From Haloferax marinum (GTDB lineage Archaea; Halobacteriota; Halobacteria; Halobacteriales; Haloferacaceae), in assembly GCF_009674625.1 (NCBI RefSeq), contig NZ_WKJQ01000001.1:2108001-2172000 (forward strand): 64,000 nucleotides of DNA, given 5' to 3'. Position numbers and translations under genes: made by a program. Numbering within the stretch: position 1 is the stretch's first letter; each line of letters starts with the position of its first letter. Under the pieces are notes generated by a model. It saw only the letters and a list, made by a program, of their open reading frames with translations, did no database searches and was not told the origin of the DNA. Positions 3,302 through 46,496 of the stretch are shown here, piece after piece.

Positions 3302-4375
3302 TTAGGCTTCGTTGCGTGCGCCTTCGGCGACGCGCTTGTCGAGGCCGGCGTCACGGATGTCGTCGCCGCCGACGGACGAACGGAGTGCGTCCATCCCGTC
3401 GAAGCGGTCGATACCGAAGTTGTCGGCGTAGAGGTCGGCGACGCGCTGCATCTCGTCGTCCGAGAGTTTCGGCACGTCGGACGCGGCGGCCCACTCGGTG
3501 ATGTCGTCTTTCGTGCGGAAGGTGGGCGTGACCGCTGCCGTGGCGTCGAAGCCGAGGAGCCACGCGATAGCGGCCTGTGCCATGCTTCGCTCTCCGTCGC
3601 GTTCGAGGAAGCGGAGCGTCTCTAATTTCTCCCAGCCAGTCTCGTACCACTCGTCGGGGCGGAAGCCACGGTGGTCACCGCTGCCGAGTTCGGTTTCGGG
3701 ACGGACCTGCTCGTTCAGGAGGCCCGAGGAGTGCGGGACGCGAGCGATGAGGCTCGTTTCCGACCCAGTCTCCTCGATGGTGTCGAGGAAGTGGTTGCCG
3801 ACTTCCTGTTCGAACATGTTCCAGACGATTTGGAGCGCGTCGAACTCCTCTGTGATGGCCATATCGCCTTCGGCGAGCCAGCCGATGGAGGGACCGAGTG
3901 CCCAGCCAGTCGACTTGATGAGGCCTTCTTCTTTCAGTTCGTCCAGTGTTTCGAGGACGTCGGGCGTGACCTCCTCGACGTTCGCGTTGTGGAGTTGCAG
4001 CAGGTCGACGTACTCCATGTCGAGTCGTTCGAGACTCTTCTCGGTCGCCTCGCGGACCCACTCGCCAGTGATTACTTTGGGGAGTTCGCCGTGGCCGGCC
4101 TGCGGGTTGTTGTAGAAGTCGTAGCCAATCTTGGTCGCGACGGTGACCTCGTCACGGTCGTCTGCGAGGGCCTCACCGACGACCTCTTCGGAGTGGCCAA
4201 GACCGTACACGTCTCCCGTGTCGAAGAACGTGATTCCCTGGTCGATGGCGTGGTGAATCATCTCGATGGAGTCTTCGTCAGAGCGGTCACCCCACCAGTC
4301 GGTCCCGACGACCCAGGCACCGAAGCCAACCTCGCTGACTTCGATACCGGAGGTCCCGAGTTCGCGGTAGTGCAT
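3302..4375 (-). CDS. Aldo/keto reductase
   Basis: 357 residues covering the whole NAD(P)H-dependent aldo/keto reductase TIM barrel. The catalytic tetrad is visible: Asp and Tyr in FDTGDVYGLGHSEE, Lys in VTVATKIGYD, and His in LLQLHN. The length fits the bacterial/archaeal AKR11/12-like group often annotated as general stress or sugar/aldehyde reductases. The substrate cannot be deduced. It is divergent from the GH32 gene and followed within 2 bases by a small membrane-protein gene. The ATG at 4375 starts the canonical MHYRELGTSGIEVS sequence. Confidence 0.92.
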   Translation of the reverse strand: MHYRELGTSGIEVSEVGFGAWVVGTDWWGDRSDEDSIEMIHHAIDQGITFFDTGDVYGLGHSEEVVGEALADDRDEVTVATKIGYDFYNNPQAGHGELPKVITGEWVREATEKSLERLDMEYVDLLQLHNANVEEVTPDVLETLDELKEEGLIKSTGWALGPSIGWLAEGDMAITEEFDALQIVWNMFEQEVGNHFLDTIEETGSETSLIARVPHSSGLLNEQVRPETELGSGDHRGFRPDEWYETGWEKLETLRFLERDGERSMAQAAIAWLLGFDATAAVTPTFRTKDDITEWAAASDVPKLSDDEMQRVADLYADNFGIDRFDGMDALRSSVGGDDIRDAGLDKRVAEGARNEA

Positions 4376-42312: not shown

Positions 42313-43725
<1,413 letters not shown>

Positions 43726-43907
43726 CCGCGAAGAATTGCCCGGCAAGACGCATAAGAGCGTCGGACTGCTCGTCAGGGCGTGTCGAGCGTTACCAGAGAG
43801 CGTTGGGTTCCTGTCGAGATGCCGTATCTCCTCACTGCGTGCCCCGAGAAGAGAAAAAATCGGCGTCAGCTCGTACTGGCAGGGTGTGATTTCGGGCGAA
43901 TCCGGGT
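43726..43907. other. Intergenic region, no feature recognised
   Basis: About 180 bases separate the AAA ATPase start from the end of the zinc-finger gene. An A6 run (GAGAAAAAATCGG, 43852-43864) could form a U-less terminator on the opposite strand (T6 on the minus strand) for the zinc-finger mRNA. No other signal is seen. Confidence 0.35.
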
Positions 43908-44117
43908 CTATAACCCTTCGTCAGTGGCTCGGATTTCGTCCTCGAAGTTCCACCCGAGGTCTCTGTGTGTCTCGTCCTTTGAACCAGAGATATGGCCTTG
44001 AACACTTCGCACCGAGTCAGCCTTGTACTCGGAGCAGATGGGACACGAGTATCTCCCGACGTTCGCATTCACGTCCACGATGACTCCCTCGATTTTAGGG
44101 GGCTCGTCTGAACACAT
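43908..44117 (-). CDS. Small C2H2-type zinc-finger protein
   Basis: 69 residues. YSCPICSEYKADSVRSVQGH gives CxxC and then a His, and HRDLGW adds a second His, forming a C2H2-like finger with a longer than usual arm. Such mini zinc-finger proteins are abundant in haloarchaea and some affect biofilm or swarming; most are unstudied. The coding sequence is less GC-rich than the neighbours. Directly upstream lie four 26-bp iterons with CTAGA/TCTAG palindromes, which suggests regulated or self-regulated expression. Confidence 0.75.
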   Translation of the reverse strand: MCSDEPPKIEGVIVDVNANVGRYSCPICSEYKADSVRSVQGHISGSKDETHRDLGWNFEDEIRATDEGL

Positions 44118-44163
44118 ACACGATTACGGTGAGGTGGAGAGAACAAAAACCCCGTCACCGTTT

Positions 44164-44267
44164 CCTAGACGCTCTCTAGGCACTGATTTCCTAGATGGGT
44201 TCTAGACACTGTTTTCCTAGGTTGTCTCTAGATAGTATTTCCCTAGACGCTCTCTACACCTCGTTTT
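44164..44267. promoter_or_regulatory. Four 26-bp iterons, each with a CTAGA-N5-TCTAG palindrome
   Basis: Units start exactly at 44164, 44190, 44216 and 44242. Each begins CCTAG and carries a palindrome of CTAGA/TCTAG half sites separated by 5 bases: CGCTC, TGGGT, TTGTC (here CTAGG) and CGCTC (here TCTAC). Seven CTAG tetramers occur in ~90 bases, although CTAG is strongly avoided in haloarchaeal genomes. The array ends 47 bases from the zinc-finger gene start and lies 163 bases from the NasA-like start. It looks like a cooperative operator. Confidence 0.8.
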
Positions 44268-44401
44268 TCCATCTCTCTCGAATCGTATACTCTAAAAACC
44301 GAGCCTGCACACGAGGCAGCAGCGACTGCATGCCCCGATTACTGGGTTGTTCGAATCGTCTCTCCCCCAGTTCGGCCGTTACTCCCCGGTATTTTTACGA
44401 C

Positions 44402-44418
44402 TGACTCCCTCAGAGTCA
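44402..44418. promoter_or_regulatory. Inverted repeat overlapping the nasA-like transcription start
   Basis: TGACTC and GAGTCA form a perfect 6-bp inverted repeat with 5-base spacer. It lies between the TATA-like element and the GTG at 44430, where a repressor could block initiation. Confidence 0.5.
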
Positions 44419-44429
44419 CCGAAGAAGAG

Positions 44430-46496
44430 GTGTCGATACAGGTGAGAAAGCGAGTCTCGACGACGTGTATGCGGTGTGCGGTCGGGTGCGGCCTCGTCCA
44501 ACTCCCCCACGACCACAGTCGTGGACTCGAAACAGTCCAGGGGGACCCCTCGAACCCCGTGACCCGCGGGGCCGCATGTCGGCGTGGCCTCCAGGAGACC
44601 GCCCATCCGCGTGGCGAGCGACTCACGAAACCACTCGTCAGAGACGATGGCGAACTCGTCGAGGCGTCGTGGGACGAAGCGGTGTCTGCTGTGAGCGATG
44701 CCATCCGAACCGCGATGGCGACGGACCCAGACGACGTGGCAGTACTGGGGAGCGGCCAGCAGACGAACGAAGCGGCCTACCTCCTCGGGAAATTCGCTCG
44801 CGCTGGCATCGGCACGCGACAGTACGACGCGAACACGACGCTCTGCATGGCGAGTGCGGTGTCGGCCTACTATCGAGCGTTCGGCAGCGACGCACCACCG
44901 CCGACCTACGACGACATCCCCGAGGCAGAAACGCACGTCGTCTGGGGGGCGAACCCTGCTGTCGCCCACCCCGTCTTGTTCCAGTGGATTCGCGAGTCTG
45001 CCGCCGACGGCCAACTGGTTGTCGTCGACCCCGTGGAGACGAAGACGGCCGAGTTCGCAGACCACCACGTCTCTGTCGCACCCGGCGGTGACCTCGAACT
45101 CGCACGCGCCGTCCTCGCGCACCTCGTCGACACCGACCGAATCGACGAGTCGTTCGTCGCGACCAACACGACCGGATTCGAGGACGTCGTCGATTCGCTC
45201 CCGTCGGTTGTCGACGCCGCAGACGCCGCCGGTGTCTCTCTCGAAGCGGTCGAGATGCTCGCCGCTGCGCTCGACGACCCGACACTCGTCTACTGGGGCA
45301 TGGGCGTCAACCAGAGCGTCCGCGGCACTGCCACGGCGGGTGCACTCGTGAACCTCTGTCTCGCGTCGGGGAATCTCGGACCGGGGTCGGGGCCGTTCTC
45401 ACTCACCGGACAGGCAAACTCGATGGGAACGCGCGTCTGTTCGTCGAAGGGCACGTGGCCGGGTCACCGACCGTTCGACCACCCCGGACATCGACGGGCG
45501 GTGGCAGACGCGTGGAACGTCCCCGTCTCTCACCTCCCGGACGACTCTGGTCCCGGCCCAGTCGGCCTCCTCGACTCGTCTCCCTCGGTCGTCTGGACGG
45601 TGGCGACGAACCCGGTCGCAGGGATGCCGAACGCCGACCGTGTTCGTGAACGTCTGGATGACGCCTTCCTCGTCGTGCAGGACGCGTTCCGCTCGGACAC
45701 CGTCGAACTCGCGGACGTCGTCCTTCCCGCGGCGACGTGGGGGGAGACGGAGGGGACGACGATGAACATGGAACGCACGGTCTCTCGTGTTCGTGCGGCC
45801 ACGGACCCACCGTCGGACGCCCGACGAGACGTGGATATCATCGCCAGCGTCGCCGCACGAGTCGCACCCCGTCTGCTTCCGGACTCACCCGTCGCCCCGT
45901 CGGCCGTGTTCGACGAGTTCGTCGCGCTCACCGCGGGAACCGCCGCGGACTGTTCCGGACTCTCGTACGCCCGTCTCGAAGACGAACACGCTGTTCGGTG
46001 GCCTGCACCGGACTCCGACATCTCCGCAGGCTACCGATATCACGACGCCGAGACCGACACGTGGTCGTTCCCGACACCATCCGGGGCGGCCCGATTCAGT
46101 ACACTCGACGGTGACCAACTCCCCGAACCGACCGACGACGACTATCCGTTGACACTCACGACGGCCCGCGAGACCGACGAGTACAACACCGGTGTTCGCT
46201 CCCGAGACAGCGACTCTGCTGGCGACCTGGTCGCTCGCGTCGACCCCGAGACGTTCGAAACCTACCGCGACGCCGTCGAAGCAGGTTCCGAGGATGGACA
46301 GACGATACTCGACTCTCGCCGCTCTTCTGTCTCGGTTCGACTCGTCGTCGACGACGCTGTCCCGACGGGTCTCGTCTGGCTTCCGATTCACCACCCGGAC
46401 ACGAACACGGTGACCACCCCCGCAGTCGACCCAGAATCGAACGAACCGAACTTCAAGCAGTGTGCGGTTCGGTTCCGTCGCCCCGAGCGGTCGTAA
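44430..46496 (+). CDS. nasA: NasA-type molybdopterin oxidoreductase (assimilatory nitrate reductase)
   Basis: 688 residues. The N-terminal [4Fe-4S] motif is CMRCAVGCGL plus a Cys ~30 residues later (GAACRRG). The segment TTLCMASAVSAYYRAFGSDAPP with DAPPPTYDDI matches the cofactor Cys region of NasA-type nitrate reductases better than formate dehydrogenases. A molydopterin dinucleotide-binding domain ends the protein. The enzyme would reduce nitrate to nitrite for assimilation. No nitrite reductase or nitrate transporter gene is nearby, so a different substrate remains possible. No ATG is available: GTG 44430 is the only start upstream of the Fe-S motif apart from GTG 44442. Confidence 0.75.
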   Translation: MSIQVRKRVSTTCMRCAVGCGLVQLPHDHSRGLETVQGDPSNPVTRGAACRRGLQETAHPRGERLTKPLVRDDGELVEASWDEAVSAVSDAIRTAMATDPDDVAVLGSGQQTNEAAYLLGKFARAGIGTRQYDANTTLCMASAVSAYYRAFGSDAPPPTYDDIPEAETHVVWGANPAVAHPVLFQWIRESAADGQLVVVDPVETKTAEFADHHVSVAPGGDLELARAVLAHLVDTDRIDESFVATNTTGFEDVVDSLPSVVDAADAAGVSLEAVEMLAAALDDPTLVYWGMGVNQSVRGTATAGALVNLCLASGNLGPGSGPFSLTGQANSMGTRVCSSKGTWPGHRPFDHPGHRRAVADAWNVPVSHLPDDSGPGPVGLLDSSPSVVWTVATNPVAGMPNADRVRERLDDAFLVVQDAFRSDTVELADVVLPAATWGETEGTTMNMERTVSRVRAATDPPSDARRDVDIIASVAARVAPRLLPDSPVAPSAVFDEFVALTAGTAADCSGLSYARLEDEHAVRWPAPDSDISAGYRYHDAETDTWSFPTPSGAARFSTLDGDQLPEPTDDDYPLTLTTARETDEYNTGVRSRDSDSAGDLVARVDPETFETYRDAVEAGSEDGQTILDSRRSSVSVRLVVDDAVPTGLVWLPIHHPDTNTVTTPAVDPESNEPNFKQCAVRFRRPERS

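Follow-up and report, generated by a model that had tools for sequence, protein, structure and literature searches.

A CTAG array upstream of a mini zinc-finger gene

The window analysed here is a stretch of 64,000 nucleotides from Haloferax marinum. It contains a mini zinc-finger gene (ZnF; 43908..44117, minus strand), recognised by its residue pattern and its relatives, which encodes a protein of 69 aa with the arrangement CX2CX13HX8H and a C-terminal LGWN.E.EI. On the other side of an intergenic region lies nasA (44430..46496, plus strand), identified as an assimilatory nitrate reductase gene by NF041323 (1167.9 bits, cut-off 1000). Downstream of ZnF, the ORF listing, profile and alignment place an AAA ATPase gene (42313..43746, minus strand), for which the ATG at 43725 is the more likely start. 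The ATPase resembles the anti-phage protein IetA (PADLOC E 2.3e-64; NCBIfam IteA 191.5 bits, below the cut-off of 510). PADLOC gave no defence match for the ZnF protein.

The sequence-only reading had described the small protein as a C2H2 zinc finger. That description comes from the residue pattern; the Pfam profile zf-C2H2_2 reached only E 0.065, below the cut-off; it was the only, weak match when Pfam was searched at E up to 1, with no Ros/MucR profile among the results. The protein is acidic, with one finger and a long H-X8-H spacing, which is unusual for a DNA reader, and its structure model is weak (mean pLDDT 53.9).

The ZnF-nasA intergenic region holds a CTAG(GA) array (44161..44264, minus strand), delimited by sequence, shuffles and family comparison. 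It consists of four 26-nt units starting at 44161, 44187, 44213 and 44239, and the exact 26-bp steps proposed from the letters alone were confirmed (the start then given, 44164, is in phase with these units, 3 bases further on). Seven CTAG tetramers (44165, 44176, 44191, 44202, 44217, 44228 and 44243) fall within 82 bp, as the earlier count of seven within ~90 bases had it; 7 CTAG per 90 bp were found in 0/5000 dinucleotide shuffles of 44118-44429 (maximum 5). The eighth position reads CTAC, and unit 4 is therefore degenerate. Read in the direction of ZnF, YCTAGGRAA recurs every 26 bp with a CTAGA-type site in between, 11 or 15 bp off, giving each unit a palindrome-like appearance. When the array is compared with itself, identity peaks at lag 26 (0.69) and stays at 0.14-0.44 for the other lags between 5 and 44. 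In all, 29 CTAG occur in the window, and the 22 outside the array (0.34 per kb) compare with ~68 expected from a Markov estimate. A whole-genome pattern search with CTAGN7CTAG gave three matches in 3.48 Mb, all inside the array.

The gap between the array and the ZnF start codon is 43 bp. Comparison of the family promoters places a TATA-like box, TTTTTGT, at -32 (44143..44149, minus strand) with GACGGGG before it. From this position the transcript would be expected to have no leader or almost none. The array is ~190-270 bp away from nasA on its upstream side, whereas it immediately precedes this box. Between 43700 and 44600, an Rfam search at E up to 1 gave no structured RNA.

Comparison with other nasA loci

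The array had also been suggested to control the NasA-like gene. The position of the array between the two genes would be compatible with a joint operator that also places nasA under nitrogen control, and in Hfx. mediterranei the nasABC promoter, which is adjoined by a divergent ATP-binding gene, has a palindrome and a consensus site (PMC8143581). We found nasA orthologues in 11 other same-genus genomes (72-80% identity), and in 0/11 was the array present: 10 loci had no CTAG in 5 kb and one (L026) had a single site. Flank order was aligned for 4/11 (L024, L025, L026, L029); most of the others have a different gene context upstream of nasA. The sister locus L024 has 189 bp from AAA start to nasA start, compared with 705 bp here, and both edges are similar: the nasA-proximal promoter stretch (GGTATTTTTACGACT...; 44391..44429, plus strand) and the stretch upstream of the AAA ATPase gene are common to this array-less locus. 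Relative to L024, the ZnF gene and the array make up ~0.5 kb of extra DNA (approximately 43797..44380 by alignment). The edges of this stretch are uncertain; the longest direct repeat between them is 8 bp, and no inverted repeat of at least 7 bp was found between them. In Hfx. mediterranei, mutation of the palindrome left the reporter trend unchanged and the authors point instead to the divergent gene (PMC8143581). We rejected control of nasA on the orthologue comparison and these published mutants and consider it very improbable; nasA is a neighbour and probably not a target. The array appears to belong to the ZnF gene, with no visible role in nitrate assimilation.

ZnF relatives share a directional row of CTAGGA sites

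Members of the ZnF family were collected by protein similarity, not via the array. We searched 392 genomes of the order and families of 125, 170, 26 and 146 genomes (partly overlapping sets), together with one named-genome scan and plasmid records. Six relatives were found, with 51-66% identity to the 69-aa protein over the aligned part, one of them in the plasmid records. The named-genome scan recovered 2/7 members, so its reach was low and further members may exist. The seven members are those of Haloferax marinum, G142, G257, G349, Halohasta salina (G291), Natrinema sp. DC36 (plasmid; G414) and Halobellus rufus (G462), with each species and its paired handle taken as the same genome and counted once; a 270-aa protein of G268 (E 1.7e-6) was left out of the count. 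At E <= 0.001, relatives were absent from 14/14 other same-genus genomes. A phage record match (E 0.09, 55% covered) was too weak to be counted, and a viral source was rejected, as none of 64 pattern stretches in IMG/VR was a relative.

Across the two alignments, which together include every one of the seven members, the Cys and His residues, CPIC and the GHIS.G stretch are invariant, including both His of the second ligand pair (H42-X8-H51). LGWN.E.EI is invariant in the six members of one alignment, and Halobellus has LGKKYEDEI. The seven carriers belong to three families, with the gene on chromosomes and one plasmid and with differing neighbours. The ZnF gene with its array looks like a self-contained transcription unit of patchy occurrence across haloarchaea.

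All seven ZnF promoters have 3-7 CTAG within 145 bp upstream of the start, and likewise 3-7 within 200 bp, the nearest at -49 to -63, and a TATA-like box at -30 to -33 with the CTAG row just upstream. Without a prior motif, CTAGGA was the top 6-mer, occurring in 7/7 promoters with 19 copies; 400 shuffle sets gave at most 5/7 promoters and 6 copies. Within the seven 150-bp promoters, all 19 copies run forward (in gene direction) and 0 reverse. Among 30 CTAG sites (a count that omits one G349 CTAG at -261), 21 are TCTAGG forward and 2 its reverse complement (binomial 6.6e-5, with sites within one array not independent). Spacing is mostly 11-15 bp, with 26 bp for the strong sites in Haloferax marinum and steps of 20-32 bp in the G349 and Halobellus rows; the promoters of G349 and Halobellus rufus (2/7) do not match the tight-spacing pattern CTAGN{7,11}CTAGN{7,11}CTAG. 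The Natrinema promoter is weak, with three sites and one CTAGGA in CTAG-rich DNA (Poisson 9e-4).

Overall, the seven promoters are slightly more alike than shuffles (mean identity 0.60 vs 0.53), so common descent explains part of their likeness, and the CTAGGA sites stand out from that part. Since CTAGGA occurs in 7/7 promoters, 19 times forward and 0 reverse, the conserved unit is, from this comparison, a TCTAGGA-type repeat with a fixed direction, its copies mostly spaced 11-15 bp, and not a palindrome. The CTAGA-N5-TCTAG-like palindrome that the sequence-only reading saw in each unit is not conserved in the relatives, which do not have the pairing that gives the 26-bp unit this look.

An orphan protein of ~180-190 aa is encoded downstream of ZnF in 3/7 loci (L107:7229-7828, L110:7563-8150, L109:6399-7079). 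It had no Pfam or PADLOC match (two copies) and no NCBIfam match (one copy). The orphan gene also occurs in 11 plasmid records, and on the DL31 plasmid it adjoins a restriction-type gene and an AAA ATPase gene. No CTAG cluster was found upstream of it in the five plasmid loci examined (L175-L179). In one of these, Halobacterium pNRC200 (L177), six CTAG fall within 64 bp (3683-3746) ~1.2 kb downstream of the orphan gene, and the ZnF pattern is absent from the locus. Because the orphan gene follows ZnF in 3/7 loci, the purpose of the module may lie in this shared downstream gene.

CTAG clusters away from the ZnF gene

The array was the richest 110-bp CTAG window in 7/7 ZnF neighbourhoods of 10-64 kb, and the Poisson chance of at least three CTAG in one given window ranged from 6e-7 to 9e-4 per locus, before window choice. 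As controls we used loci with weaker zinc-finger matches, 26 in number and 25 distinct (L061 and L091 are the same place); a regular expression confirmed the finger pattern in just a part of these. In 0/25 did three CTAG fall within 110 bp; L077 came nearest, with its three CTAG spread over 128 bp at a distance of 362-486 bp from the match. The pattern read backwards counts GATC, which makes an unfair null, and was not used as a control.

The stricter three-site pattern CTAGN7CTAGN11CTAG occurred in 12/392 genomes of the order, with several overlapping matches here and one place in each of 11 others, none of which is a known ZnF carrier. CTAGN{7,11}CTAGN{7,11}CTAG was searched in 29 genomes. 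Five of the 7 carriers had a match at the ZnF promoter, and the carriers together had just three matches elsewhere. Among the 22 non-carriers, 6 genomes contributed 8 separate stretches (an overlapping pair of matches in G236 counted once). Several of the non-carrier matches have other contexts, such as CTAGT. Because this looser pattern also matches other places in carriers and non-carriers, CTAG clusters as such are not exclusive to ZnF; the specific feature, judged from these patterns, is the directional CTAGGA row before the gene. Elsewhere in the order, dense CTAG clusters occur with no known ZnF, in the 11 other genomes mentioned above, and reach as many as 11 CTAG per cluster.

Conserved CTAG clusters have been described at haloarchaeal orc1/cdc6 genes (PMC4752239, PMC5867850), and the array could in principle be such a replication-origin cluster or a set of plasmid iterons. 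In the Natrinema member orc1 lies 4.7 kb away, and the other three-site match of this genome, on contig C3 (L181 near 5306), is 0.7 kb upstream of an Orc1-like ORF. Dense CTAG near 1501 in L007, L009, L010, L016 and L017 lies beside repeats which we take to be ORB-like. At the array itself, however, the four genes typed around it are ZnF, NasA, an AAA ATPase and a thiolase, none of them orc1/cdc6; six ORB-like strings, some of them taken from L007-L017, gave one match in the window, at 2400; and the array accompanies the ZnF promoter in 7/7 members. For five other members, whose neighbours were simply listed, an orc1 gene nearby is possible. The origin reading was rejected here for want of an adjacent orc1/cdc6 and with the single ORB-like match at 2400, and we regard it as extremely improbable.

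The ORB-flanked clusters of L007-L017 and the C3 cluster fit the published CTAG enrichment at haloarchaeal origins. Four further loci (L011, L012, L015 and L018, near 1501) have 8-11 CTAG per 3-kb locus, many closely spaced, with no ORB flanks by eye and no tie to a known ZnF. Rows of TCTAGGA were also found in 35 viral contigs; the ZnF pattern was absent within 1.5 kb of the rows in the four contigs checked (L141, L150, L155, L164), which are those with G+C above 0.55. A 16-bp tandem unit, TCTAGGATCTCTAGTA, was seen in 12/15 IMG/VR contigs inspected, all 12 AT-rich (L144, L148, L149, L151, L153, L159, L160, L161, L167, L170, L171, L173).

A putative autoregulatory operator

An operator array should show repeated, conserved sites ahead of the gene for its presumed regulator, and such sites were found in 7/7 promoters. 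This upholds the proposal that the array is operator-like and linked to the zinc-finger gene: in every member, a CTAG row that includes CTAGGA occupies the same promoter position, and the sequence comparison gives strong grounds for a cis link between array and ZnF gene. Since six relatives have such a row at the same place, the gene most likely controls itself through the row. We consider it probable that the array is the operator of the ZnF gene, read cooperatively by the ZnF protein, which would thereby regulate its own transcription. In this model the directional CTAGGA row directly upstream of the BRE/TATA-like region, seen in every family member found, would be bound cooperatively by the 69-aa protein, one finger per site, and the bound protein would then act on its own promoter. 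The CTAGGA sites adjoin the TATA-like box and do not overlap it. Judged by this placement, the regulation may be of either sign, with upstream activation or a feedback switch a slightly better match than simple occlusion.

The array could also be read by a different host regulator, with the ZnF gene only as its output. Binding by ZnF is, after all, inferred, and the known ligands of zinc fingers include RNA, proteins and lipids (PMC11241148). Few other such arrays are present in the carrier genomes, however, which makes a host regulator with many targets unlikely, and the association of ZnF and array holds over three families and a plasmid. For these two reasons, few other targets and spread across hosts, we favour the ZnF protein as the reader, and a separate host regulator seems rather unlikely.

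CTAG methylation

The CTAG core makes methylation sensitivity of the array possible. By analogy with the GATC sites of agn43 in E. coli, the row might act as a switch in which an orphan CTAG (m4C) methylase modifies the sites and methylation decides whether the reader binds. Such a switch would be compatible with ZnF autoregulation. The candidate methylase of this genome has 48.6% identity over 93% to the enzyme of plasmid pFZ1, which is encoded there beside an MjaI-family restriction endonuclease; pFZ1 is presumably the plasmid encoding M.MthZI. Of 27 methylase loci found, 16 were examined, and the candidate group is present in 6/7 ZnF carriers. M.MthZI of Methanothermobacter is cited in the paper on HVO_0794, the CTAG methylase of H. 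volcanii, as a characterised, plasmid-encoded CTAG methylase (PMC5867850). In one Haloferax, CTAG is over-represented in the 75 bp that precede transcription starts, and a part of the sites stays unmethylated (PMC11001535). On the other hand, Halobellus rufus (G462, 94% complete) has no PF01555 match and yet keeps five sites, an observation that speaks against methylation being strictly required, and a symmetrical methylase site leaves the directional GGA conservation unexplained. By this analogy a methylation-sensitive switch is conceivable but unlikely.

A wider form of the analogy would make the module a mobile, self-contained archaeal epigenetic switch, in which a one-finger protein reads the CTAGGA row of its own promoter and the state is heritable, as for agn43. 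Each CTAGGA overlaps a methylase site, and the gene would flip between a methylated and a bound state. We hold this version to be quite unlikely.

Relation to known systems and significance

The proposed regulator resembles several known systems in part. Ros/MucR C2H2 regulators are likewise small prokaryotic zinc-finger proteins, as the promoter DNA-binding protein proposed here would be, but ZnF has the CX2CX13HX8H arrangement and no match to a Ros/MucR profile, and its sites repeat in the same orientation within an archaeal TATA-type promoter instead of forming an inverted repeat. Brz and other CPxCG-related small proteins are, like ZnF, tiny haloarchaeal zinc fingers with one CPxC pair. 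CPIC is a CPxCG-like pair as defined for that group (CPxCG, CPxCx or CxxCG), but the second pair of the definition (Cys/His 2-3 residues apart, 7-40 residues away) is replaced by H-X8-H (PMC2253796). Brz acts on transcription of the neighbouring bop gene; by word search, CTAG, 'binding site' and autoregulation are absent from the main text of that report (PMC2253796). Stf76 of the Sulfolobus plasmid-virus pSSVx, an archaeal protein of 76 aa, recognises a pair of sites in its own promoter (PMC4027180), but it is a winged helix-turn-helix protein with no zinc finger, and it has two sites and no CTAGGA row. Origin CTAG clusters and orphan-methylase sites likewise bring dense CTAG into haloarchaeal non-coding DNA (PMC4752239, PMC5867850). 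Those origin clusters sit at orc1/cdc6 genes, whereas the array sits at the ZnF promoter, with a directional GGA.

We found no report of a CTAGGA operator or of the ZnF family in a search that lay mostly outside the subscription literature and is thus weak evidence of absence. To our knowledge, few haloarchaeal small zinc-finger proteins have a known DNA target. Haloferax volcanii has 49 predicted small zinc-finger proteins (PMC11241148). Here, one such family is paired with a conserved, rare and easily mutated site, at which binding, cooperativity and regulatory sign could be tested together. Published work has left open whether CTAG methylation regulates genes in Archaea (PMC6471742, PMC11001535). 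Because every site of the array contains the target of the widespread orphan CTAG methylase, its promoter would offer a concrete place to ask this question.
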